64,000 nt of DNA from Sulfurivermis fontis. GTDB taxonomy: Bacteria > Pseudomonadota > Gammaproteobacteria > Thiohalomonadales > Thiohalomonadaceae. The translations under genes and the position numbers were made by a program. The stretch is from contig NZ_AP018724.1 in the NCBI RefSeq assembly GCF_004001245.1, positions 984,501 through 1,048,500 on the forward strand, read 5' to 3'. Of this stretch, positions 20,361 through 64,000 are shown in pieces. Position 1 is the first letter of the stretch, and each line of letters opens with the position of its first letter. Below the pieces are notes generated by a model. That model made no database searches and had not been told where the DNA came from. It saw only the letters and a list, made by a program, of their open reading frames with translations.

Positions 20361-20576
20361 CTATCGGCTCTTCTTTGCACTTACGGAATCCCGTTCCTTG
20401 CTGGAGGCTGGGGTGAGCAATGACCCCTGGAACGGGTACTGCTCTCTATCCAAGTGCTCCTTGATCAGTCGAACAATCAGCGTCGATTTCTTGTACCCAC
20501 GTTCGTTGCAGAAGGCTTCAAAGCGACGAGCTTCGTCATCGGGGACAAGTACTGAGATCTTCGTTGGCACAGCCAC
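20361..20576 (-). CDS. Small ribbon-helix-helix-like regulator
   Basis: A 71-residue protein beginning MAVPTKISVLVPDDEARRFEAFC, a beta strand followed by helices (YKKSTLIVRLIKEHLD) as in Arc/CopG-type repressors, with a basic Ser-rich tail. It has an AAGGAG ribosome binding site and ends 15 bp before the methyltransferase start, so it is the first gene of the leftward operon. It may regulate the system in place of a classical C protein; that role is inferred from position and a palindrome upstream. Confidence 0.7.
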   Translation of the reverse strand: MAVPTKISVLVPDDEARRFEAFCNERGYKKSTLIVRLIKEHLDREQYPFQGSLLTPASSKERDSVSAKKSR

Positions 20577-20589
20577 GGTGGCTCCTTGT

Positions 20590-20640
20590 ACAGGGTATAC
20601 CTCATATTAGACCACCAAAATCCTCACAAAGCAAGACAAA
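20590..20640 (-). promoter_or_regulatory. Putative promoter and palindromic operator of the restriction-modification operon
   Basis: On the minus strand TTGTGA is followed after 17 bp by TATGAG, a weak sigma-70-like pair. Just downstream is the perfect palindrome GGTATACC (20594-20601), between the presumed start of transcription and the ribosome binding site of the RHH gene. Its position suits an operator for the RHH protein. Inference only. Confidence 0.4.
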
Positions 20641-20673
20641 TGCGTACTTGTGCGCAATCAAGCGCCTACGAAG

Positions 20674-21156
20674 TCACGCAGCTCCACTTTTCAGTGGATC
20701 GACGTCAAGGTGCGCAACCTCTGCCTCTCGCCTCAAAGCCAAACCTGGCAAGATCCGGCCTCCGCCGTATACCCAGCGGCGTAGCTCTTGCGTTGCACCG
20801 CGCCAGTCCCGCTGATTGACCCGCCGCCGCAGCGTCGAGGTCTGCAGCCGCCCGGCGCCGAGGTTAAAGGTGAAGTCCACGATGGCTGCGAGCCGGTTCT
20901 CGGGCTCCGTAGCCAGCACCGGGCAATAGCGCAGTGTGGCGGCGAGCGCCACCTTCAGATCCTGGGCGAGGTAGGCCTCGGCCTCGCCTTCCGTGATCGG
21001 CGGGTGCTTCGGATCGCACAGATGCCCGTAGCCGATCGTCGGATAGCCGGCCGGACAGATGTACGGATAGGCGCGGTTGGGATCGTGCTTTGGAACGCGG
21101 TGGAAGCCCTCGAAGCGTTTGGCCAGCTCGATGGCCGCTTGGGGTACCGCAATCAC
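20674..21156 (-). CDS. Phage lysozyme (endolysin, T4-type GH24)
   Basis: The 160-residue muramidase cleaves the peptidoglycan sugar backbone for lysis. It starts at GTG 21156, overlapping the holin stop as GTGA. The catalytic triad spacing of T4-type lysozymes is visible: Glu16 in FEGF, Cys34 at the Asp/Cys position and Thr40 (C-x5-T) within CPAGYPTIGYGH. Later regions VDFTFNLGAG and RRREAEV-like residues fit the family. No signal or SAR segment is seen, so export should depend on the upstream membrane proteins. Confidence 0.9.
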   Translation of the reverse strand: MIAVPQAAIELAKRFEGFHRVPKHDPNRAYPYICPAGYPTIGYGHLCDPKHPPITEGEAEAYLAQDLKVALAATLRYCPVLATEPENRLAAIVDFTFNLGAGRLQTSTLRRRVNQRDWRGATQELRRWVYGGGRILPGLALRREAEVAHLDVDPLKSGAA

Positions 21157-41005: not shown

Positions 41006-42958
41006 TCAGGAAAGCCAGCGGCTCTTGATCACGCGCCGGCCTGTTTTCTGGGTTCCAGAAACGCTGAGGCCACCGCGTTGGGTGGCCTCGTTGTTCGATT
41101 CACTAGGTGTCTCGATGGCTGGCGGCGCCAGACCAAGTTGTCGTTCCAGTTCGCGCCAGTGCCGCTCCTCGAAACGGTCGAGACCGGCGGTACTGGCCGC
41201 GGCACGGGCATAGACGTAACAGTCCAGGGCTTCGTTTCGCTCGCGCAGTTTCTGCCACTCGCGCACCGGGAAGCCGTTACGGTTGCGGCGGGTGACGAGC
41301 TGTTCGGCGCAGAGCTGTTGCACGTATTCGGCATCGACCTTGGGCAGATGGACGAAGCCGGCCGGGTAGCGTACCGTCACGCCGTCCTCGGCAACTTCCG
41401 GGGACTTGCGCAGGTTGTTGTAAAACTCCAGCTTGGCGATGCCCACCGCGACCGAAAACACCTTGATGCCACGGCGCAGCTTGCGCCCGGACTGCGAGAC
41501 ATCGACGACAGTGGGTGTGCCGACGAGAGCCGCGCCCCTGGGCACACCCTTGACCGCCATCACCCGGCTGTCGCGCGCGCCGCGCACGAAGGCATAGGCC
41601 TCCTGTGTGGCAAAGCCGGTGTCCACGGCAAGCCTGATCAGCGGCAGGTTCGCGCCGGATGCATGCGTCCACGTCTCTTCGAGCAGCGCGCCGAGCGAAC
41701 GCCACACCTCATCCCGCGCGGTGTCGCCCATCAGCACGCGGTGCTCGACGAGCCAGGATTCCTTGCCACGCCCGAAGGCCCACACGGATACCTCGATGCG
41801 ATCCTTCTGCACGTCGGCCCCGGCGGTGAGCAGCAGGCCGCCCATGGGCACCGTGCCCAGCGGATAGTCCTCGCGCCGCTCGATGAGGCGCTGCCACTCG
41901 GGTGCTTCGCCTTCTTCCACCCAGGTCTCGCCGAGCTCGACGTTCTTGAATGTCTTGATGGCCGCGACAGAGCCGGCCTCTTTGCCGATCGCCGCCTCCC
42001 ACGAAGCCGCGATGTCGCGCCACGAACGCCAGCCCACCGGACTGTAGAGCGACGAGAGGTGAAACCCGGCCGTGCGCCCCGCATTCTCCGGCGCCGTGGC
42101 GCGCCACTCACCGTGTTCGAGCATCCATGTCTTGTGGTGCTCATCGATGGGGCGGTCGCAGGACTCGCACACATAGACCGCCGTCTCCGGTCGGGTCTTT
42201 TCCCACCGTAGCTGCTCGAAGCGCAGCCATTGACGGTGCGAGCAGTGCGGGCACGGGACGAAATAGCGGCGCTGATCACTCCTCTCGTACTCGCGCTCGA
42301 TGGCGCTCGCGCCGGCAATGGTCGGGGTCGAGACGATGAATAGCTTGCGCCGCGCAAAGGTGCGGGTGCGCGCCTCGGCCAGCGAAATCGCGTCGCCCTC
42401 GCCATCGACATCGAGCGGGTAGCCGTCCACCTCATCGAGGAAGAGGTAGCGCACGGGCATCGAGCGCAGGCCCACGGCGCTGTTCGCGCCGGTCATCACC
42501 AGCACGCCGCCCCTGAACTCTTTGGCAAGCACGGTGTTGCCGGAATCGCGCGCGCGCGCCGGGGCGATCAGCTCGGCAAGCGCTGGCGTCTCTTCGATCA
42601 GCGGGTCGATGCGCTGCTTGGAGTTGCGCTTGGCCATCTCCACGGTGGGCCACACCGCCATCATCGGCCCTGGGGCGTGGTGGATGACATAGCCGATCCA
42701 GTTCAGGCCAAGCTCCGTGCCGCCGACCTGTGCGCCCTTCATGAACACCACGCGCTCGATGGGCGAGGTGGGTGACAGACAATCCATGATCTCGCGCAAG
42801 TAGGGCGTGCGGCTGGTACGCCAGCGCCCAGGTTCGGCGGAGGCGCGACTGGACAGCATCCTGTGCCGGTCGGCCCACTCGGACACGGTCAGCATTGGGT
42901 CGGGCATCATGCCCTCGCGCCAGGCGCGCTCGATGTCGAGGGCCCCGTCGTACTCCAT
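41006..42958 (-). CDS. Terminase large subunit (lambda gpA family)
   Basis: A 650-residue packaging motor and nuclease. The GpA pattern is clear: MLSSRASAEPGRWRTSRTPY, MDCLSPTSPIERVVFMKGAQ, the Walker A-like VFMKGAQVGGTE and VRYLFLDEVDGY as Walker B. A zinc-type CPHCSHRQWLRF with VCESCDRP follows. The nuclease domain includes LLLTAGADVQKDRIEVSVWA and later acidic residues. ATG 42958 shares one base with the small subunit stop; a TTG one codon earlier is less likely. Confidence 0.93.
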   Translation of the reverse strand: MEYDGALDIERAWREGMMPDPMLTVSEWADRHRMLSSRASAEPGRWRTSRTPYLREIMDCLSPTSPIERVVFMKGAQVGGTELGLNWIGYVIHHAPGPMMAVWPTVEMAKRNSKQRIDPLIEETPALAELIAPARARDSGNTVLAKEFRGGVLVMTGANSAVGLRSMPVRYLFLDEVDGYPLDVDGEGDAISLAEARTRTFARRKLFIVSTPTIAGASAIEREYERSDQRRYFVPCPHCSHRQWLRFEQLRWEKTRPETAVYVCESCDRPIDEHHKTWMLEHGEWRATAPENAGRTAGFHLSSLYSPVGWRSWRDIAASWEAAIGKEAGSVAAIKTFKNVELGETWVEEGEAPEWQRLIERREDYPLGTVPMGGLLLTAGADVQKDRIEVSVWAFGRGKESWLVEHRVLMGDTARDEVWRSLGALLEETWTHASGANLPLIRLAVDTGFATQEAYAFVRGARDSRVMAVKGVPRGAALVGTPTVVDVSQSGRKLRRGIKVFSVAVGIAKLEFYNNLRKSPEVAEDGVTVRYPAGFVHLPKVDAEYVQQLCAEQLVTRRNRNGFPVREWQKLRERNEALDCYVYARAAASTAGLDRFEERHWRELERQLGLAPPAIETPSESNNEATQRGGLSVSGTQKTGRRVIKSRWLS

Positions 42959-43503
42959 CAATCCACCTGTGGGCGGACCTCGCCCAGTTCCTGCAAGTGC
43001 TCACGCACCGCCGTCTCCAGCGCAACGTGCAAGGCGTGCGCATCCACGCCAAGCCTGGCCGCCATCTGCGCCGAAACGCGCGCCGGCCAATTGAGCCAGG
43101 CATCACGCTCGGCGCGCGCGAGCTTGAACACATGGGCGATGGCCTGGTGGCGGTCGATCAACTCGCCCTTGAGGCGAGCCAGGCGCACCTTGTTGGTCTG
43201 CGCCTTGATTACCTCGTTGACCGTGCGCGCCTGCAGCAGGGATGTGCCACCCGTGGGCAATCCCGTCGGCATGTCGCCTACGGGCACACTGCCGGCGGCC
43301 TCCGGTGGCACGGCGCCCAGGACGGGCCTGGTGCGAGCGCCGGCGCGTGGCGCCTCGGTGTTCCTTGTCCACTGCGCATCGGCCTGATCTGGGTCGATGG
43401 TGCCGTCTGGTAGCGTCGTGATACGGCCGCTATCGATCGCCTTCTTGACAGCCACGTGAGAGACGCCGCGATGCCTGGCATAAGCACGTATCGATAGACC
43501 CAT
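42958..43503 (-). CDS. Terminase small subunit (Nu1-like)
   Basis: A 181-residue protein whose N-terminus is a winged-helix DNA-binding domain (LSIRAYARHRGVSHVAVKKA), as in gpNu1, followed by a linker and the helical VNEVIKAQTNKVRLARLKGE for gpA contact. It recognises cos or pac. ATG 43503 is used; in-frame starts up to 43515 exist. It is the first late gene and diverges from the small-gene cassette. Confidence 0.82.
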   Translation of the reverse strand: MGLSIRAYARHRGVSHVAVKKAIDSGRITTLPDGTIDPDQADAQWTRNTEAPRAGARTRPVLGAVPPEAAGSVPVGDMPTGLPTGGTSLLQARTVNEVIKAQTNKVRLARLKGELIDRHQAIAHVFKLARAERDAWLNWPARVSAQMAARLGVDAHALHVALETAVREHLQELGEVRPQVD

Positions 43504-43553
43504 GATTACCATCAAGCCGATCGCAGATGTTTTCCCGCGTTGCGATTCAGCGC

Positions 43554-43582
43554 TTGGCTTTTCTCCGCAGAAGCGCGTTCAT
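43554..43582 (+). promoter_or_regulatory. Leader repeat copy a (promoter-like)
   Basis: TTGGCT (43554-43559) is followed after 17 bp by GTTCAT (43577-43582), then ATCACCATCAACCACACC, AAGGAG and ATG 43617. It is the most divergent of the six copies but keeps the exact spacing. It lies in the divergent region between the terminase small subunit and the small-gene cassette. Confidence 0.6.
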
Positions 43583-43616
43583 GTCATCACCATCAACCAC
43601 ACCCAAGGAGAAGAGC

Positions 43617-43886
43617 ATGAACACCAACAAAATAGACGCCCTTGGCCAGAAACTGGCCGAAACCGCCATGACCCTGCTGGTACGCCTTTATCCGGAAGTG
43701 CGCCAGGCCAGCAACGCGCAGGTGGATGCTGCCGTGGCGGCGATGCGCGCCAAGTCAAGGTCGGTGATCGACGAGTTGATCGATGACGCCAAGGAGGCAC
43801 CCTGGGTGGCGCACATCGCGTTTCAGACCGCAGCCCTGACGCTCGCCCACGAGGGCATCAAGACACTCAAGGCGGGATGCAAATAA
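43617..43886 (+). CDS. Small cassette protein 1, unknown function
   Basis: An 89-residue, mostly helical, mixed-charge protein: MNTNKIDALGQKLAETAMTL, VDAAVAAMRAKSRSVIDELI, ending THEGIKTLKAGCK-like (AHEGIKTLKAGCK). The start has AAGGAG 7 bp upstream and follows leader copy a. It is the first of a run of + strand genes set between leftward terminase and methyltransferase genes. No family recognised. Confidence 0.65.
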   Translation: MNTNKIDALGQKLAETAMTLLVRLYPEVRQASNAQVDAAVAAMRAKSRSVIDELIDDAKEAPWVAHIAFQTAALTLAHEGIKTLKAGCK

Positions 43887-43911
43887 ATCTCCGAAGCCTT
43901 GCAAAAAGAGC

Positions 43912-43940
43912 TTGGCTTCCTGATCGAACAGCGCCTTAAT
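43912..43940 (+). promoter_or_regulatory. Leader repeat copy b (promoter-like)
   Basis: TTGGCT (43912-43917), 17 bp, CTTAAT (43935-43940). The spacer and the following 40 bp up to the ribosome binding site AAAGGAG are nearly identical to copy c. It lies 25 bp after the stop of the previous gene and drives gene 43975, if it is a promoter. Confidence 0.68.
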
Positions 43941-43974
43941 GCAATCACCATCAACAACCACAAAGGAGCACAGC

Positions 43975-44184
43975 ATGAAACCAACCAGCGCCATCCTCAC
44001 CCACAGCAACTACGACGCCGACGACTACGCCTACCTCACCGCCAAGGGCTGGAGCGATGACGAAATCCTGGCCCGCTGGAGCGAAGAGGCTGCGCGTGGC
44101 AACGGACCATGCCGCTGGGAAAGCGCGTCGGCCCGCGCCAAGCTGGCCGCCGTAACCGGTCGCAAACAGAAGAAGCATGGCTGA
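43975..44184 (+). CDS. Small cassette protein 2, unknown function
   Basis: A 69-residue protein, MKPTSAILTHSNYDADDYAY, LTAKGWSDDEILARWSEEAA, then a basic C-terminus (GRKQKKHG). The acidic helix followed by a basic tail suggests a small regulatory or DNA-associated protein. The start has AAAGGAG upstream and follows leader copy b. No family recognised. Confidence 0.65.
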   Translation: MKPTSAILTHSNYDADDYAYLTAKGWSDDEILARWSEEAARGNGPCRWESASARAKLAAVTGRKQKKHG

Positions 44185-44194
44185 AAAAGAAGCA

Positions 44195-44247
44195 GGAAGC
44201 CAAGCGTTTTCTAAACGCTTGGCTTCCTGATCGAACAGCGCCTTAAT
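44195..44247 (+). promoter_or_regulatory. Leader repeat copy c with perfect hairpin
   Basis: TTGGCT (44219-44224), 17 bp, CTTAAT (44242-44247). The first hexamer is embedded in a perfect 15-bp inverted repeat, GGAAGCCAAGCGTTT / AAACGCTTGGCTTCC, with a 3-nt loop (44195-44227). There is no U-run after the hairpin, so it is not a typical terminator; it could block read-through or serve as a protein-binding site. Confidence 0.68.
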
Positions 44248-44280
44248 GCAATCACCATCAACAACCACAAAGGAGCACAG

Positions 44281-44832
44281 ATGAGCACCATCCAACTCAC
44301 CCCCGCCCAACACGCCATCCTCGCCTACGCCATCGAACACACCGGCGGCAAGATCGAGTGGTTCCCCGACAAGCTCAATGGCGGCGCCCGCCAGAAGGTG
44401 CTCGACGGTTTGGCCAGTAAAGAGCTGATCGCCAACCATGGCGCCGGCTGGTGCGCCACCGCCAAGGCCTATCGTGCCTGGGCAGAATCCATTGGTCACC
44501 CGTCCATGGCCGCAGCGCACGAAACGCCCGAGCAGCACGAACACCTCGACGCCTACGACCGGGCAATCATGGCCGCCAAGGAGGGCGCAATGATTCGCAA
44601 GGCCCGCGAGGAGGCGATCACGAAACTTAAGCAACGCGACAGCAAGCAGGCCAAGATTCTCGAACTGCTCGAACGCCCCAACGGCGCGACGATCGCGCAG
44701 ATTTGCGCGGTCACCGGTTGGCAACCGCACACGGTGCGCGCCACATTCACCAACGTCATCAAAAAGAAGCTGGGCCTGAACCTGGTTTCAGAGAGGCCTG
44801 CCGGAGGCGAACGGATTTACAGGATCGCGTAA
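44281..44832 (+). CDS. DUF3489 domain protein
   Basis: A 183-residue protein. The N-terminus is MSTIQLTPAQHAILAYAIEH with ARQKVLDGLASKELIANHGA, and the C-terminus carries the DUF3489 winged-helix pattern DSKQAKILELLERPNGATIA, then GWQPHTVRATFTNVIKKKLG and ERIYRIA. DUF3489 genes often accompany DUF2924 and serine recombinase genes, both of which occur at the right end of this prophage. A DNA-binding role is likely but unproven. It follows leader copy c. Confidence 0.85.
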   Translation: MSTIQLTPAQHAILAYAIEHTGGKIEWFPDKLNGGARQKVLDGLASKELIANHGAGWCATAKAYRAWAESIGHPSMAAAHETPEQHEHLDAYDRAIMAAKEGAMIRKAREEAITKLKQRDSKQAKILELLERPNGATIAQICAVTGWQPHTVRATFTNVIKKKLGLNLVSERPAGGERIYRIA

Positions 44833-44846
44833 TTCGCGCGGGATGG

Positions 44847-44894
44847 GAAGCCAAGCAAAAAACGCTTGGCTTCTCAAGCAAACAGCGCCTTCAT
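44847..44894 (+). promoter_or_regulatory. Leader repeat copy d with hairpin
   Basis: TTGGCT (44866-44871), 17 bp, CTTCAT (44889-44894). A 10-bp inverted repeat GAAGCCAAGC / GCTTGGCTTC with loop AAAAAAC (44847-44873) overlaps the first hexamer. The downstream part, containing GGGTGTCGCAACGATAAAC and AAAGGAGA, is shared with copy e but not with b and c. Confidence 0.68.
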
Positions 44895-44932
44895 ATGGGT
44901 GTCGCAACGATAAACAGAAAGGAGAACACGCC

Positions 44933-45223
44933 ATGAAATTCACGACCGAACGCGATTACATGATCGACGCCGCCAAACAACATGCCCGCGATGCCATTGC
45001 CCAGGCACGCAGCACCCTGGAGCGCAGCTTGCGCGAGCTTGATCGTTACGCCGAGCGATTTGAAGCAGCCGAAACGGTTTACGACCAAGCAAAAACGATG
45101 AACTGGCTCCTGAACGAGCTTGCCAGCAACATCCTGCCCAACCTGCGCCTGGACTTGATCGCGGATGCGCAAGCAGAACTGGCCCGCGCGCACGAAGTCG
45201 CCCGCGCCGCCAACCAGGAGTAA
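44933..45223 (+). CDS. Small cassette protein 4, coiled coil, unknown function
   Basis: A 96-residue, strongly helical protein (MKFTTERDYMIDAAKQHARD, LERSLRELDRYAERFEAAET) with a predicted coiled coil and an acidic C-terminus. ATG 44933 has AAAGGAG upstream in leader copy d; an in-frame ATG at 44843 lies before the leader and is rejected. Three bp separate it from the zinc-finger-like gene. Confidence 0.65.
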   Translation: MKFTTERDYMIDAAKQHARDAIAQARSTLERSLRELDRYAERFEAAETVYDQAKTMNWLLNELASNILPNLRLDLIADAQAELARAHEVARAANQE

Positions 45224-45226
45224 GCG

Positions 45227-45538
45227 ATGAAGACGCCCCAAACCTATCCATGCACACGCTGCGAGGGGAAGGGGCGCCTTCCCCATTACGCCAACGTGCT
45301 GGGCGGCGTGTGCTTCAAGTGCGGCGGGACAGGCCGACAAAAGACCAGGCCAGCCGCCCCATCGCGCCGTTGGTCAGTGAATGCGATCCGCACCACCGAT
45401 CATCACGACTGCGTCGTGTTCCACGTCCGGGCAAAGACGGAGAGAGAAGCTCTCAATAAGGCCTCCGCCGCCCTATCCAGTGCGCGCGAGCAGATTTACG
45501 ACCCTACGACCATCCGGGTCACGCCATGGCCCGATTAG
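45227..45538 (+). CDS. DnaJ-type zinc-finger-like small protein
   Basis: A 103-residue protein with CTRCEGKGRLP and, 16 residues on, CFKCGGTGRQK: two CxxCxGxG motifs as in the DnaJ central zinc domain, enough to bind one zinc. The remaining part (TTDHHDCVVFHVRAKTEREA) is a small alpha/beta domain. It is translationally linked to the preceding gene (3 bp). Such proteins are common but uncharacterised in prophages. Confidence 0.72.
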   Translation: MKTPQTYPCTRCEGKGRLPHYANVLGGVCFKCGGTGRQKTRPAAPSRRWSVNAIRTTDHHDCVVFHVRAKTEREALNKASAALSSAREQIYDPTTIRVTPWPD

Positions 45539-45551
45539 ATTGAAAAAACGC

Positions 45552-45580
45552 TTGGCTTATCAATCGAACAGCGCCTTCAT
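45552..45580 (+). promoter_or_regulatory. Leader repeat copy e (promoter-like)
   Basis: TTGGCT (45552-45557), 17 bp, CTTCAT (45575-45580), then GGGTGTCGCAACGATAAACC and AAAGGAGA before ATG 45619. The sequence is close to copy d throughout, but the left half of the hairpin is missing. Confidence 0.68.
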
Positions 45581-45618
45581 ACGGGTGTCGCAACGATAAA
45601 CCGAAAGGAGAGCACACC

Positions 45619-45825
45619 ATGTCAGCTGTCGTAACCACCCAGCAAATCGAAGCCAACTACGCCAAGTTCATCGCCGAACTGACGGCGCTCACCCGCAAAT
45701 ACGGCGTCGCCATCCAGTCGGTCGGCGGTGTCCACCTCGCCGACGATCCACGCGATTTCCGCAACGTCCGCTACGTGGCCGATATCACCAGCGGCGACCT
45801 CTATCCGGAATTTCCCGCCGATTGA
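45619..45825 (+). CDS. Small cassette protein 6, unknown function
   Basis: A 68-residue protein: MSAVVTTQQIEANYAKFIAE, LTRKYGVAIQSVGGVHLADD, and an acidic, aromatic C-terminus (ITSGDLYPEFPAD). It follows leader copy e with AAAGGAG. It is the last gene of the cassette before a convergent terminator hairpin. No family recognised. Confidence 0.65.
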   Translation: MSAVVTTQQIEANYAKFIAELTALTRKYGVAIQSVGGVHLADDPRDFRNVRYVADITSGDLYPEFPAD

Positions 45826-45839
45826 CAACGCGTCGCACG

Positions 45840-45866
45840 CCAGGCCACCCGCCACGCGGGTGGCCT
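45840..45866. terminator. Bidirectional terminator-like hairpin
   Basis: Stem CAGGCCACCCG (45840-45850) / CGGGTGGCCTG (45856-45866), 11 bp perfect with a 5-nt loop, between two convergent gene ends (45825 and 45876). There is no U-run on either side, but GC-rich hairpins at convergent ends are often terminators in high-GC genomes. Confidence 0.55.
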
Positions 45867-45875
45867 GCTTCCAGC

Positions 45876-46091
45876 TCAACGCCCACGCAGCGCCTCGAAA
45901 CCACGGCGCAGCACGTAACTGCGGACCATCGACACCACCGTGAAGATCAGGCCGATTTGGAGGTTCTCCTGGACCGTGGCGTGCAGACCGAAGCGCGGGA
46001 ACACCATCCACTGGGTCGCCACCGCCACCCCATAGCCGACCAGCACATTGGCCACGGCCTCCACCAGCGACATCCATCGCGACTGCTTCAC
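45876..46091 (-). CDS. Small phage membrane protein (DUF7220-like)
   Basis: A 71-residue protein starting at GTG 46091 (GTGA overlap with the methyltransferase stop). It has two membrane helices (ANVLVGYGVAVATQWMVFP and LQIGLIFTVVSMVRSYV) joined by a short loop and ends with a basic RRGFEALRGR. This type is frequent next to phage methyltransferase or terminase genes. Function unknown. Confidence 0.7.
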   Translation of the reverse strand: MKQSRWMSLVEAVANVLVGYGVAVATQWMVFPRFGLHATVQENLQIGLIFTVVSMVRSYVLRRGFEALRGR

Positions 46092-47374
46092 AGCGACGCC
46101 TCTGCCTCTACCTCGGCGGCAGCCTCCGCCGTGCTGGCCAGGTCATCGAATTTCACCCCATCGGCTTCCCGCACCGCCTGCGCCCCGGCATAGTCCTGCC
46201 AGCGGCGCACGATCACGTCCGCGTACTTCGGGTCGAGTTCGATGAGCCGCGTCCGGCGCCCCGACTTTTCGGCGGCGATCAGGGTCGTGCCGCTGCCACC
46301 GAATGGATCGAGCACCACGTCGCCTGGGCGGCTGGAGTTGCGGATGGCCCGCTCGACCAGCTCCACTGGCTTCATCGTCGGGTGCAGGTCGTTCTTCTGC
46401 GGCTTGTTGAATTGCCACACGTCGCCCTGGTCGCGGTCGCCGCACCAGTGGCGATCCGCGCCCTCGGGCCAGCCGTAGAGGATCGGCTCGTACTGGCGCT
46501 GGTAGTCCGAGCGGCCCAGGGTGAAGGTGTTCTTGGCCCAGATGATGAACGTGGACCAGTGGCCGCCCGCCGCGCGGAAGGCCGCCTGCAGGGTGTCGAG
46601 CTCGCTCGACGACATGGCGACGTAGATCGCGCCGCGGGTGTGGGCAACGAGCAGCGACAGCGCGTCGTAGAGAAAGTCGTGAAAGCCTGCGCCGAGCGCG
46701 TCGTTGAGAATGGGACGGTGCTTGCCCCGCAGCTTGTCCTTGGCGCTGTTGGCGTAGTTCACGTTGTACGGCGGATCGGTGAAGGCCATGTCCGCCCGCT
46801 CGCCGTCCTGGAACAGCTGCGCGTAGGCCTCTGCCGCGGTCGCATCGCCGCAGACCAGACGGTGCTCACCCATGATCCAGACATCGCCAGGCCCGGACAC
46901 CGGCGACACCGGCGCCTCGGGGACGGCATCGTCCTCGGTCAACCCCTCGCGCGTGGTCTCCTCGCCCGCCAGCAGGTCGGCCAGGGCGTCGGCGTCGAAG
47001 CCGGTCAGGTCGAGGTCGAAGCCTTCGGCCTGCAAGTCCGAAAGCTCGATGCGCAGCAGCGCCTCGTCCCAGGTCGAAAGCTCCGCGAGCCGATTGTCGG
47101 CGAGCACCAGCGCCCGCCGTTGGGTGGGCGTCAGGTGATCGAGCACCACCACGGGCACCTGGGTAAGGCCGAGTTTGCGCGCTGCGGCCAGCCGGCCGTG
47201 GCCGGCGACGATCACGCCATCCGATCCGGCCAGGATCGGGTTGGTGAACCCGAACTCGGCGATGGAGGCGGCGATCTGGGCGATCTGCGCGTCCGAGTGC
47301 TGACGGGCGTTGCGGACGTAAGGGATGAGCTTGTCCGTTGGCCAGTGCTCGATCTTGTCGGCAAGCCAGTTCAT
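46088..47374 (-). CDS. ParB-like domain fused to DNA N6/N4 methyltransferase, copy 1
   Basis: A 428-residue protein. The N-terminal ParB/Srx-like domain (1 to about 100) has LIPYVRNARQHSDAQIAQIA and GVIVAGHGRLAAARKLGLTQ. The methyltransferase part has DPPYN as motif IV and, near the C-terminus, VLDPFGGSGTTLIAAE as motif I, the beta-class order. DPPY enzymes mostly make N6-adenine. ATG 47374 overlaps the stop of the related upstream gene (ATGA). It may protect phage DNA from host restriction. Confidence 0.9.
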   Translation of the reverse strand: MNWLADKIEHWPTDKLIPYVRNARQHSDAQIAQIAASIAEFGFTNPILAGSDGVIVAGHGRLAAARKLGLTQVPVVVLDHLTPTQRRALVLADNRLAELSTWDEALLRIELSDLQAEGFDLDLTGFDADALADLLAGEETTREGLTEDDAVPEAPVSPVSGPGDVWIMGEHRLVCGDATAAEAYAQLFQDGERADMAFTDPPYNVNYANSAKDKLRGKHRPILNDALGAGFHDFLYDALSLLVAHTRGAIYVAMSSSELDTLQAAFRAAGGHWSTFIIWAKNTFTLGRSDYQRQYEPILYGWPEGADRHWCGDRDQGDVWQFNKPQKNDLHPTMKPVELVERAIRNSSRPGDVVLDPFGGSGTTLIAAEKSGRRTRLIELDPKYADVIVRRWQDYAGAQAVREADGVKFDDLASTAEAAAEVEAEASL

Positions 47375-48903
47375 TTGCGATTGCGCCCCCATGGATTACG
47401 AATCGGGTTCTCCATCTTGGCCATGCGGTCGTTGAAAACGTCCGACAGGCGTTTTTTCACATCGCCATAGGTCGCCGTGACGCCTTCCGGCTCGCGCTCG
47501 GCCTTGACCGCCGCCCAGCTCTGGCCGGTCGTCTCCAGCACCGGCGCACGATCGGGGTGGGTCTTCATCCAGCGGATCACGGCCACATCGACATACTCGG
47601 GGGCAAGCTCGGCGGCACGCACGCACCGCCCGCAGGCCTCGCCCGCGAGGATCGTCGTGCCCGATCCCGAGAAGGGCTCGAACACGATCTCGCCTTCGTC
47701 GGTGTAGGCCTCCATGACGAACTTCGGCAGGCCGATGGGGAACACCGCCGGATGGTCGATCTCGCGGTCGCGGTCGATGGGTCCGCGCTGGCGAGTGACG
47801 GTGATGACGGAATCCGGGATGCGGAACTCTTGCGTCGGGAGTCCCGTGTGGCACCAGCCGGTGCGTGCTCCTTCCTTGCTCCTCAATCCGCCTGTGCTCG
47901 TGCCATCGGCGCGCAGGTGCACATCCTGCCCGGCGTATTTGCACGGCACGATCTTGTTGGGCTTGCGGATTGCGCGGTTGAAGTGGAACAGGAACTCGTG
48001 GCGCGGGGCCAGGCGCCCGACCCAGTCGCCGGGGACGGTGACGCCCTGGTCCCACACGTACCAGCCGAAGCGCCGCCAGCCTTGGCCCCGCATCCATTCG
48101 ATCCAACCGTCCCAGTACGGCTGCCACTCGCCGTCGCGATGGACCAGGCCGAGGTTGACCAGCATCTGGCCGTCCTCGCGCATGACACTCATCGCCGCGC
48201 CGAACACGCCCTGCATCAGCGCGTCCCAGTCCGCGATGCCGCCGGTGGTGTAGTTGCGCTGGTTGGCATAGGGCGGGCTGGTGAACAGCAGCGCCGCCTG
48301 CTCGCCAGCCATCAGGCGCTGCATGGCCGCGCGGTCGGAGGAGTCGGCGCAGATCAGGCGATGCTCGCCCAACAGCCAGACATCGCCCGGGCGGCTGATG
48401 ACGATCTTCGGCGGCGCGGGGATGTCCTCATCGTCGCGCGCCTGATCGTCCTCATCGGCCGTCGATGCGTCGGCGGGTTGAATATCCGCTTCGATCTCAT
48501 CGAGCAGCCGCTCGATCTCATCGTCACCCATGCCGGTGAGCGCCAGATCGAAGCCCGCCTCCGACAACTCGGCCAGCTCCAACGCCAGCATCTCTTCGTC
48601 CCACCCGGCGTCGAGAGCCAGGCGGTTGTCGGCGATCACGTAGGCGCGCTTCTGTGCCGGAGTGAGGTGGCTAAGCTCGATCACCGGCACCTCGGTGAGC
48701 CCGAGCTTGCGGGCCGCCGCCAGCCGCCCATGGCCGGCGATGATGCCGTTCGCTCCATCCACCAGGATCGGGTTGGTCCAGCCGAACTCGACGAGGCTGG
48801 CGGCGATACGCGCGATCTGCTCGTCGCTATGCGTGCGCGGATTGCGGGCGTAGGGGACCAGCGTCTCGACCTTGCGATATTCGACGCGCAGGGGTTCGGT
48901 CAT
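47371..48903 (-). CDS. ParB-like domain fused to DNA methyltransferase, copy 2
   Basis: A 510-residue relative of the neighbouring gene with the same two-domain layout (LVPYARNPRTHSDEQIARIA, NGIIAGHGRLAAARKLGLTE), but a different catalytic motif, SPPY (FTSPPYANQRNY), and FEPFSGSGTTILAGE as motif I. SPPY typically marks N4-cytosine or some N6-adenine enzymes, so the pair probably have different specificities. ATG 48903 is chosen because the preceding 30 in-frame codons are unlike any homologue. A terminator lies 60 bp upstream, so the gene may have its own promoter. Confidence 0.9.
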   Translation of the reverse strand: MTEPLRVEYRKVETLVPYARNPRTHSDEQIARIAASLVEFGWTNPILVDGANGIIAGHGRLAAARKLGLTEVPVIELSHLTPAQKRAYVIADNRLALDAGWDEEMLALELAELSEAGFDLALTGMGDDEIERLLDEIEADIQPADASTADEDDQARDDEDIPAPPKIVISRPGDVWLLGEHRLICADSSDRAAMQRLMAGEQAALLFTSPPYANQRNYTTGGIADWDALMQGVFGAAMSVMREDGQMLVNLGLVHRDGEWQPYWDGWIEWMRGQGWRRFGWYVWDQGVTVPGDWVGRLAPRHEFLFHFNRAIRKPNKIVPCKYAGQDVHLRADGTSTGGLRSKEGARTGWCHTGLPTQEFRIPDSVITVTRQRGPIDRDREIDHPAVFPIGLPKFVMEAYTDEGEIVFEPFSGSGTTILAGEACGRCVRAAELAPEYVDVAVIRWMKTHPDRAPVLETTGQSWAAVKAEREPEGVTATYGDVKKRLSDVFNDRMAKMENPIRNPWGRNRK

Positions 48904-57433: not shown

Positions 57434-57904
57434 TCACTCCTCCAGCAGGGCGAGACGGAATCCGGGCTTGCCGGTCTTGAGCGTGCGGGCGGGGGCGAAG
57501 GCGCTCTTCAGCGATTCGGGCCAGGCGTTGAACTTGGTCTCGGAGACGCGGTAGGCGGTCTCGACGTACTCGGCCGGGTCCTCGCCGCCCTCAGCGATAC
57601 GGCGCACGATCTCGGCGAGCCGCTTCTGATCCCACTCGACCCGCTTGGGAAGGTCGGCGGTGACGCGCACGCGGCCGTCGTCGAAATGCACGACGCCGGT
57701 GTCCTTACCGGCGGCCATGCGCAGGGCATGGGCGCGGTCGGCGTACTTCATATCCAGCGCGCGTTCGAGGTGCTCGACGATGGCCTTGGCGGCCGAGAGC
57801 AGATCGGCGGCATCGTTCTTGAGCTGGAACAGCGCCTCGCTTTGCAGCGCGGCGAGCTCGCCGGCCGGCGTGGCGAGAACCTGGTCGGGGGTGAGGCGGC
57901 TCAT
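57434..57904 (-). CDS. Phage protein of unknown function
   Basis: A 156-residue protein: MSRLTPDQVLATPAGELAAL, KNDAADLLSAAKAIVEHLER, then KDTGVVHFDDGRVRVTADLP and KRVEWDQKRLAEIVRRIAEG. It is mostly helical, with a short central beta part. It is common in prophages at this place but not characterised. ATG 57904 overlaps the AlpA-like stop by 4 bp. Confidence 0.7.
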   Translation of the reverse strand: MSRLTPDQVLATPAGELAALQSEALFQLKNDAADLLSAAKAIVEHLERALDMKYADRAHALRMAAGKDTGVVHFDDGRVRVTADLPKRVEWDQKRLAEIVRRIAEGGEDPAEYVETAYRVSETKFNAWPESLKSAFAPARTLKTGKPGFRLALLEE

Positions 57905-58113
57905 GCCACACCTCCCGCGCCGACGCGCTCGGAGGTGCTCTTGCGCAGGCACTCCGCCTCGTAGGACTCGACGTCCTCGACACGGTAGAGCACGCGCCCC
58001 TGGATCTTGAGAAAGACCGGCCCGATTCCTTCGGAGCGCCAGCGTTCCAAGGTGGCTTCGCTGACGCCCCAACGGTCGGCCAGTTGGCGTTGGTTGAGGT
58101 GTTTGATACTCAC
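57901..58113 (-). CDS. AlpA/MerR-type small DNA-binding protein
   Basis: A 70-residue protein with a MerR-like helix-turn-helix: LNQRQLADRWGVSEATLERW, RSEGIGPVFLKIQGRVLYRV, EDVESYEAECLRKS. It starts at GTG 58113 with AAGGAG 7 bp upstream. AlpA-like proteins act as excisionases or transcription activators. As first gene of the early operon it may bind the GGGCAAA repeats just upstream; that is a guess. Confidence 0.82.
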   Translation of the reverse strand: MSIKHLNQRQLADRWGVSEATLERWRSEGIGPVFLKIQGRVLYRVEDVESYEAECLRKSTSERVGAGGVA

Positions 58114-58220: not shown

Positions 58221-58240
58221 TCGGCCATGCGCAGAGACGG

Positions 58241-58276
58241 AAAAGAAAAAGGCCCGGAGTGGTTGGCTCCGGGCCC
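58241..58276 (-). terminator. Rho-independent terminator
   Basis: Minus strand stem GGCCCGGAG / CTCCGGGCC (58252-58260 and 58268-58276), 7-nt loop, followed by TTTTTCTTTTCC. It ends the transcript of the DUF2188 gene, and so separates the gene group at 58303-60781 from the early operon below. Confidence 0.85.
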
Positions 58277-58302
58277 TTATCGGGGGTGGAAATGCGGGGT
58301 GG

Positions 58303-58527
58303 TCAGCCGGGAGGCGGGAACGGATCTTTGCCGTAGCTGTTGCGCTCGCGGATCTTCCCGTCCTCGCCCTGGATGAGCACCTCGCTGCCCTGGTTGCGCG
58401 CGATGTCGCGTGCGCGCTCGAAGGCTTCCTGTTGCGTATCGTGTACGGAGGTCAGGCGGTCGTTGCCTTCCCCCCGGACACCCCACTTGTCGCCGTTGCG
58501 GACGACCCACTGGTTCTTACCACTCAT
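58303..58527 (-). CDS. DUF2188 domain protein
   Basis: A 74-residue protein: MSGKNQWVVRNGDKWGVRGE, then a helix QQEAFERARDIARNQGSEVL and IQGEDGKIRERNSYGKDPFP. This is the DUF2188 pattern (a small double-stranded-RNA-binding-like or stress-type protein of unknown function). ATG 58527 is internal to a longer open frame; the upstream part is not similar to the family. It is followed by a terminator. Confidence 0.85.
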   Translation of the reverse strand: MSGKNQWVVRNGDKWGVRGEGNDRLTSVHDTQQEAFERARDIARNQGSEVLIQGEDGKIRERNSYGKDPFPPPG

Positions 58528-62306: not shown

Positions 62307-62525
62307 ATGTGCACGATCAACCACCTACCACCCGAACGGATGACGCCGGAGCAGCGCCGGCGCGAAGCCGCATCCTTGCTGGCCCACGGCCTCGTCCGAC
62401 TGCGCGAGGCCGTGTTCGCCCAGTCCGCAGGCGGCCCCGCGGAGAGCGAGTTTGAGCTTGGCTTCTCCGGCCACCAGCGCCTTCATAGCCACCCCGTCAA
62501 CAACACTTTGGAGGAGGCTCCATGA
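62307..62525 (+). CDS. Small protein of the DUF2924-recombinase unit
   Basis: A 72-residue protein: MCTINHLPPERMTPEQRRRE, AASLLAHGLVRLREAVFAQS, a helical pattern I know from small proteins preceding DUF2924 genes. Its C-terminal 25 codons coincide with leader repeat copy f, so the end of the coding sequence and the repeat overlap. The stop overlaps the DUF2924 start (ATGA). Confidence 0.7.
   Translation: MCTINHLPPERMTPEQRRREAASLLAHGLVRLREAVFAQSAGGPAESEFELGFSGHQRLHSHPVNNTLEEAP
62458..62486 (+). promoter_or_regulatory. Leader repeat copy f (promoter-like)
   Basis: TTGGCT (62458-62463), 17 bp ending ACCAGCGC, CTTCAT (62481-62486), then GTCAACAACACTTT, GGAGGAG and ATG 62522. It is about 17 kb from the other copies and keeps the hexamers and the spacing exactly, although it lies within the coding sequence of the small upstream protein. 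Confidence 0.65.
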
Positions 62526-63015
62526 AGGCAAGCACCGTCCCACCCACCCCGCCGAGCGTCGTCGCCCGGATCGCCGGGCTCCCGGATCTCTCGATAGAGG
62601 AAATGAGGGCGCTTTGGCGAGAACTCTTCGGCAGCGACAACCCGACGCCCAATCGCCAGTTCATGGAGCGGCGGATCGCGTACAAGCTGCAAGAGATCGA
62701 GTTCCGCAAGGTCGATCCCAGCCTCTTGGAGCGCAACAAGCGGCGCATCAAGGCCCTGGTGGAGACCGGCAAGGCGCGCAAGCTCGATCGCGACATCCGG
62801 CTGATGCCCGGCACCGTGCTCACCCGGGAGTACCAGGGGATCGAGCACCGGGTGACGGTCGCCCAGGACGGACAGTATGAGTTCGAGGGCAGGCGCTACC
62901 CGAGCCTGTCCATGATCGCCCGCGAGATCACCGGCACCCGCTGGTCCGGGCCGCTCTTCTTCGGCGTGAAGGCACCGGCCAAGGCGAAGAATCCGAAGAA
63001 GCAGGGAGGTCGGCG

Positions 63016-63019
<4 letters not shown>
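62522..63019 (+). CDS. DUF2924 domain protein
   Basis: A 165-residue basic protein with the DUF2924 pattern: LSIEEMRALWRELFGSDNPT, NRQFMERRIAYKLQEIEFRK, LMPGTVLTREYQGIEHRVTV and YEFEGRRYPSLSMIAREITG, then GTRWSGPLFFG. The C-terminal part resembles a small DNA-binding RAMA-like domain. It is encoded directly before the serine recombinase and may help in recombination. ATG 62522 has GGAGGAG. Confidence 0.88.

Positions 63020-64000
<981 letters not shown>

Follow-up and report, generated by a model that had tools for sequence, protein, structure and literature searches.

A 64,000-nucleotide stretch of the Sulfurivermis fontis chromosome (contig NZ_AP018724.1, positions 984,501 to 1,048,500; hereafter the window, whose own numbering is used unless genome positions are specified) holds a tailed prophage in which six copies of one leader precede small accessory genes and a DUF2924-recombinase operon. 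This leader is a real, strongly selected and lineage-wide regulatory module built around a near-invariant block. Judged from sequence, the block is most likely a promoter of an unusual type, and the leader is probably a mobile promoter module of a single lineage of temperate phages. The element appears to be undescribed, as no description of it, and nothing relevant on DUF3489, DUF2924 or DUF6900, was found in searchable papers (most subscription papers lie outside this set).

Six leaders in the window

The pattern TTGGCT-N17-(G/C)TT(C/A)AT was matched exactly at 43554, 43912, 44219, 44866, 45552 and 62458, exclusively on the forward strand, where approximately 0.008 exact matches are expected by chance at the 64% G+C of the window. 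The six same-strand sites listed in a first-pass annotation of this DNA were thereby borne out. One further site in the window was matched when a single mismatch was allowed. A scan with a profile of the leader, which the same annotation had proposed, was run using 42 columns derived from 330 non-redundant leaders; the six leaders scored 39-52 bits, and no other site of 8 bits or more was found in the window or in three shuffles.

The cores are located at 43554-43582 (leader a, upstream of the gene at 43617-43886; 39.2 bits), 43912-43940 (leader b; 51.7 bits), 44219-44247 (leader c; 51.1 bits), 44866-44894 (leader d; 51.1 bits), 45552-45580 (leader e; 50.1 bits) and 62458-62486 (leader f, within a small upstream open reading frame (ORF); 42.0 bits), all on the forward strand. 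The block ends 33-38 nt before the ATG in these copies, and the Shine-Dalgarno (SD) sequence lies roughly 20-27 nt past the block. The two proposed subtypes are real: leader b does not differ from leader c over 64 nt, and leader d agrees with leader e at 64 of 71 positions. The spacer end CAGCGC, described as a shared feature, was present in five of the six leaders, and copy a, the most divergent, has AAGCGC instead. Inverted repeats were located at 44195-44228 (GGAAGCCAAGCGTTT..AAACGCTTGGCTTCC, reaching into the left half of leader c) and at 44847-44873 (GAAGCCAAGC..GCTTGGCTTC, at leader d).

Conservation and distribution of the block

Because pattern scans impose the pattern, loci were collected by protein and the regions upstream of the starts were then inspected. 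At no more than two mismatches in 17 core bases, the block was found before 97 of 104 DUF3489 starts (93 of them perfect); at the same tolerance it preceded 81 of 87 WGFWG-family starts (mostly with GTTACT as the last hexamer) and 44 of 66 DUF2924 starts. The distance between TTGGCT and the last hexamer was 17 bp in 236 of 237 protein-anchored loci. The consensus, CTTGGCTTc-n6-GAACAGCGCGTTCAT, spans about 30 bp and is near-invariant in the 330 non-redundant leaders, with weak conservation continuing to about position 46. Inverted repeats matching at 8 or more of 10 positions were present in 84 of the 330 leaders (approximately 10 expected), and a sense T-run was absent at them.

The block was found in hundreds of viral and bacterial contigs, always in the sense orientation, mostly in beta- and gammaproteobacterial prophages and mostly 24-42 nt upstream of a start codon. 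Pattern scans recovered at least 120 viral stretches and at least 119 stretches from genome collections (mostly beta-/gammaproteobacteria), and the pattern was also found in the complete genome of Nitrospira defluvii. Among 28 viral contigs checked whole, 21 have the block, in 2-6 copies apiece. The first-pass annotation had considered that the leader might be scattered at random across host chromosomes; this was not observed, as a fuller pattern occurred in 13 of 369 genomes of the class and 3 of 399 genomes of a phylum sample (reversed pattern, 0), and multiple matches per genome were mostly clustered. A plasmid search using leader a returned chance matches only.

Acidithiobacillus phage AcaML1 has three copies of the block, before homologous genes. 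In its record (JX507079), the annotated ORF gp29 (20407-20787) covers the gp28 leader, because a sense codon stands where the window homologue has its stop (TAG at 45536); ORF calls swallow leaders in this way. Far from the usual hosts, the block was also seen in a metagenome-assembled genome named Bacteroidetes (JAIXUS010000045; stretches L178 and L211), which is likely a mis-binned proteobacterial contig.

Cassette exchange at the leader

The block precedes approximately 30 unrelated families of small genes in addition to the DUF2924-recombinase operons. Proteins downstream of it fell into 32 clusters (a few of them doubtful singletons, maybe spurious ORFs) in more than 50 distinct arrangements, some of which represent partial contigs. 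The cassettes occupy a hotspot between terminase and ParB-like methyltransferase genes, with 104 of 114 loci matching the terminase and 104 of 114 matching the methyltransferase. The distance from the preceding stop codon to TTGGCT has a median of 31 (quartiles 27-32). In WGFWG leaders, similarity of the left flank tracks the upstream gene (0.50 vs 0.38), and the n6 and downstream parts are independent of that gene (0.68/0.67, 0.79/0.80 and 0.74/0.73); right-hand similarity tracks the downstream gene. This places the break in linkage at the block's left edge, a signal that is less clean in the smaller set of family f4 and in the DUF3489 set.

The many gene orders with breakpoints at the block, and the occurrence of one block both beside a recombinase and ahead of every cassette, could also be produced if the block were a site-specific recombination site of the linked serine recombinase, forming an integron-like array. 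We consider this very improbable. The attC site of integrons is a folded inverted repeat bounding cassettes, whereas the block has no dyad symmetry, its hairpin is not maintained and no closing site follows the last cassette. Its position and orientation relative to the ribosome binding site and start codon are those of a regulatory element, and ordinary homologous recombination at a common leader suffices to explain the shuffling. A role as the attachment site was likewise rejected, since the window prophage and a sister prophage in the same genome share sequence until about 2.3 kb past the DUF2924 leader and the prophage end likely lies elsewhere.

Evidence for and against a promoter

For the 189 leaders that have no inverted repeat, the A/T content before TTGGCT peaks at -5 to -7 (up to 88%), -15 to -17 and -26 to -30, with dips in between, and its autocorrelation peaks at lags of 10-11 and 21. 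Position -6 is A/T-enriched in every class, and the base itself varies, with T in 34 of the 39 DUF2924 leaders and A predominating in the others. If TTGGCT is taken as a -35 element, the A/T peaks fall at the positions contacted by the C-terminal domain of the RNA polymerase alpha subunit (alpha-CTD). TTGGCT agrees with TTGACA at four of six positions, and the 17-bp spacing is within the 16-18 bp of sigma-70 promoters. Where -1 and +1 would be expected, 98% of leaders have a pyrimidine (position 34) and 75% a purine (position 35).

Several observations weigh against this interpretation. The last hexamer, GTTCAT or GTTACT, is without the -11A (-11 is T in every profiled copy), and the block is for that reason not an ordinary sigma-70 promoter; GTTCAT also misses most of TATAAT. 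GTTACT replaces GTTCAT in 76 of 109 WGFWG leaders, and the DUF2924 and AlpA leaders mostly have CC, rather than pyrimidine-purine, at positions 34-35. No canonical sigma-70 site was found near the cassette genes (43400-45900), and the A/T peak at -26 to -30 may partly reflect the neighbouring stop codon. Few promoters need an invariant block as long as 30 bp, so that a specific protein or RNA role must be invoked, and no single candidate regulator emerged. Sigma-54, sigma-32 and extracytoplasmic function (ECF) promoters were compared by eye and rejected, as spacings or invariant bases misfit.

The first-pass annotation had proposed phage promoters or start-associated elements that place the small-gene cassette and the DUF2924-recombinase unit under one control. 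The shared start-associated element linking these units is strongly supported; a promoter is the best reading of it, qualified by the hexamer without -11A. Each cassette copy is an intergenic unit of roughly 95 bp, in which the preceding stop is followed by A/T-phased DNA (about 31 bp) and then by the 30-bp block, and the remaining 24-42 nt end with the ribosome binding site and the start codon. Under the promoter model, RNA polymerase, aided by a factor conserved in the lineage or its hosts, would then take TTGGCT as the -35 region, with alpha-CTD touching the upstream A/T patches and initiation approximately 7 nt past GTTCAT; the start point, the recognition by polymerase, the timing and the trans-acting factor in this scheme are putative. 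The same switch would be placed on each accessory gene and on the DUF2924-recombinase operon, and cassettes would be exchanged by recombination at the block, which is common to all. A bolder version, which we put forward tentatively, is that the block is recognised by a phage transcription system not described before, in which a sigma-like factor or an activator specific to the lineage would act on a non-sigma-70 promoter and switch on approximately 30 shuffled small-gene families together with the integration recombinase.

Coding overlap and hairpin in the DUF2924 leaders

At DUF2924 loci the block is also coding sequence. Its translation, LGFSGxQRVH, falls close to the end of a small ORF, and in 36 of 46 cases the stop of this ORF either overlaps the start of DUF2924 or abuts on it. 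The window copy of the ORF (62307-62525, forward strand, 72 amino acids) encodes the segment LGFSGHQRLH across the leader, with an ATGA overlap between its stop and the start of DUF2924. Conservation might accordingly be sought at the protein level, with the block encoding a conserved peptide, LGFxxEQRVH. In these loci a conserved small protein has this segment at its C-terminal end, with its stop over the DUF2924 start, and two variable codons and TTC/TTT wobble also suit a reading frame. This explanation is scarcely credible. Codons are frozen within the block and free elsewhere in the same ORFs (CTT in 37 of 39 vs 9%, p=3e-28; also GTT, p=9e-14, and CAT, p=1.5e-8), and therefore nucleotides, not amino acids alone, are under selection. 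Ahead of cassette genes, the frame seldom has an in-frame ATG with a ribosome binding site (6 of 74 for DUF3489, 5 of 58 for WGFWG), and it is not constant relative to the cassette gene.

The DUF2924 5' untranslated region (UTR) in the window (62487-62521, forward strand) contains a stem, AGCC.CCCC/GGAG.GGCU, that pairs with the SD region (fold of -9.3 kcal/mol). Across the DUF2924 leaders, the 5' UTR pairs its own SD better than those of relatives (-8.17 vs -6.64 kcal/mol, p=2e-4), and the alternative stems GAACCCC/GGAGUUC, GACCCCG/CGGAGUC, CCUGU/ACAGG and ACUCC/GGAGU were found. The combination of an SD-hiding hairpin with the ATGA overlap suggests that DUF2924 translation is coupled to the small ORF; hairpin and upstream ORF would probably form a second layer of control in these copies.

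The covarying, SD-sequestering structure in these leaders is among the reasons to ask whether the whole block acts after transcription, as part of an mRNA begun elsewhere, with a protein or RNA binding to it and controlling cassette translation. Such a role would fit the fixed place of the block before the ribosome binding site and start in all families and the weak conservation reaching to about position 46, and the start-associated sequences (SAS) of cluster K mycobacteriophages have been proposed to act in translation (PMC3203893). We nevertheless judge it unlikely. The SD-pairing signal was not significant in DUF3489, WGFWG and DUF6900 leaders, which are three big cassette classes. The GAAC/GTTC pairing of the core is broken without compensation, no covarying pairs were found in the core, and no leader matched Rfam 15 even at E<=5. 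The phased upstream A/T enrichment, in which A or T is free, is a signal of DNA type, and at DUF2924 loci the block is within an ORF, where ribosomes would remove an RNA-bound factor.

Copies elsewhere in the host genome

The S. fontis genome has 15 exact matches to the pattern (14 forward, 1 reverse; reversed control, 0), of which 14 have a full or near-full block; the exception, at 3123.0 kb, is a CAGGGTC site. The full and near-full blocks are confined to the window prophage or to a region at 2.88-2.956 Mb that contains the sister prophage and islands. The sister prophage (2.932-2.976 Mb) has structural genes in common with that of the window (50-86% protein identity for many of them), and between the two the recombinase unit is 99-100% identical. 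Its cassettes are ordered differently, and its copy of gene b follows another leader subtype.

An extra leader with a family f6 gene (genome 2932071-2932099, reverse strand) lies approximately 100 bp from where left-end similarity of the sister prophage to that of the window stops; a cassette has apparently been inserted there, at a second site. At genome position 2973841 (L022:3841), the sister DUF2924 leader is scrambled within the block (CCGGAAGCAGCCTCAT), and the downstream gene is 99% identical to that of the window.

The leader is also present in defence-like islands: at 2.879 and 2.916 Mb (L017:8586-9845 and L019:5286-6495), a gene of the Fic/DUF4172 type (the one that was tested is SoFic-like) is followed by the same leader and then by an AlpA-like gene. 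Restriction-modification genes adjoin, with an HsdS-like gene in one island and HsdM together with a HerA-like helicase in the second. Both islands also share, 3' of the AlpA-like genes, a stretch that is nearly the same in the two (GTGGGGCGGCAGCCTGCGCCAAAC...ACTCAGCGCCTT; L017:10260-10380 and L019:7510-7640).

AlpA as a candidate trans-acting factor

The AlpA-like HTH_17 regulator of the window (57901-58113, reverse strand) was considered as a candidate trans-acting factor, which would refine the promoter model. Homologues were present in 29 of 33 block-bearing phage contigs, the AlpA-like genes of the host islands have the block themselves, and a precedent exists in prophage CP4-57, where AlpA is reported, in a citation given by PMC4936722, as an activator for the integrase gene. 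The recognition helices, however, differ strongly under the same block (SEATLERWRSE, SVKTLRRWRQE and SPKTLQRWRSE). AlpA is equally present in 10 contigs picked for a DUF2924 leader without the block (several have the block elsewhere), and near-identical AlpA proteins occur alongside both G23 and C23 leaders. AlpA as the specific activator is thus quite unlikely, and its binding, which the first-pass annotation had listed as something to check, is unsupported by these comparisons. Since the helices diverge while the block stays constant, it is more likely read by a more conserved factor, of host or phage.

The C23 variant is rare (25 of 622 leaders) and is present in window leaders b-e and f. 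Its coevolution with AlpA was rejected because the sister prophage pairs the same AlpA with G23 cassettes; gene conversion between leaders is a simpler account. A strong hairpin with a T-run after it (58236-58311, reverse strand) lies upstream of the AlpA-like gene; it looks like an intrinsic terminator and gave sub-threshold Rfam matches.

Cassette genes and prophage surroundings

Head, tail and replication genes are recognisable in the window prophage. The cassettes form a forward-strand island flanked by reverse-strand genes, with the terminase large subunit (41006-42961; GpA domains) and a terminase small-subunit-like gene (42958-43515; the AcaML1 gene at the same place is annotated as the small subunit) bordering the hotspot on one side and a ParB-like DNA methyltransferase (46088-47392; phrog_498) on the other.

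The forward-strand cassette genes are a (43617-43886, 89 amino acids, without a Pfam match above cut-off; relatives elsewhere likewise have the leader), b (43975-44184, 69 amino acids, MKPTSAILTHSNYDADDY, family f10), c (44281-44832, 183 amino acids, DUF3489, PF11994, E=2.5e-27), d1 (44933-45223, 96 amino acids, MKFTTERDYMIDAAK, family f8), d2 (45227-45538, 103 amino acids, Cys-rich, 3 nt past d1 and without its own leader) and e (45619-45825, 68 amino acids, no family). Gene c alone among them was assigned to a Pfam family. The DUF2924 gene (62522-63019; PF11149, E=7e-44) and the large serine recombinase (63016-64000, continuing to genome position 1048874; PF00239/PF07508), both on the forward strand, were recognised by Pfam as the unit that had been predicted.

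In a comparison with the PADLOC defence library, none of the cassettes had a convincing match; DUF3489 (CARF3) and DUF2924 (PDC-S14) matched weakly, at E 0.001-0.005. The structural model of the WGFWG cassette protein is all-helical and confident (predicted local distance difference test, pLDDT, of 87); no solved relative was found for it, its matches being uncharacterised phage proteins only.

Comparison with known systems

The block differs from each of the following systems in sequence, position and coding overlap. Comparable start-associated repeats in mycobacteriophages had been pointed out at first pass, none of them known to have this sequence, and SAS and their extended forms (ESAS) do have a similar layout with no sequence relation. 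Both they and the block precede only non-structural genes of many unrelated families in nearly always one orientation, are absent from the host chromosome, have a subset with an added inverted repeat and are of unproven function. The SAS of cluster K mycobacteriophages (Pope et al. 2011, PMC3203893) is 13 bp (GGGATAGGAGCCC), includes the SD and is separated from the start by 3-7 bp; the block, by contrast, is 30 bp and ends about 20-27 nt before the SD.

T4-type phages have PeSL elements, reportedly the subject of Arbiol 2010 and Comeau 2014 (see PMC4503421), in which a host-like early promoter is joined to a terminator stem-loop. PeSL and the block are both regulatory cassettes between accessory genes that also serve as modular shuffling sites, and approximately 25% of leaders have a stem-loop on the left side; the promoter-like part of the block is not a sigma-70 consensus, though, and its stem-loop is usually absent and without a sense T-run.

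In SIRV2 and other archaeal viruses, a conserved regulatory sequence of early genes is a TATA/BRE promoter, and some of the genes are demonstrated anti-CRISPRs (PMC11065993). There, as here, one conserved signal stands before many unrelated small accessory genes and can serve as bait for gene discovery, an approach that earlier served for anti-defence genes of archaeal viruses; early and anti-CRISPR genes are demonstrated in that system, whereas the present cassettes are known from sequence alone.

Implications

One exact signal marks approximately 30 families of tiny phage genes that lack functional annotation, and it can be used as bait for collecting them across genomes. The regulation and shuffling of accessory genes become directly testable, since a single motif serves many genes, their hotspot is defined and the recombinase that controls integration is tied in. 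If the block is indeed a promoter, a non-sigma-70 signal shared across several orders of Proteobacteria would need a strongly conserved reader. Should it belong to an undescribed phage transcription system, the leader alone would mark the accessory arsenal of a global group of phages.

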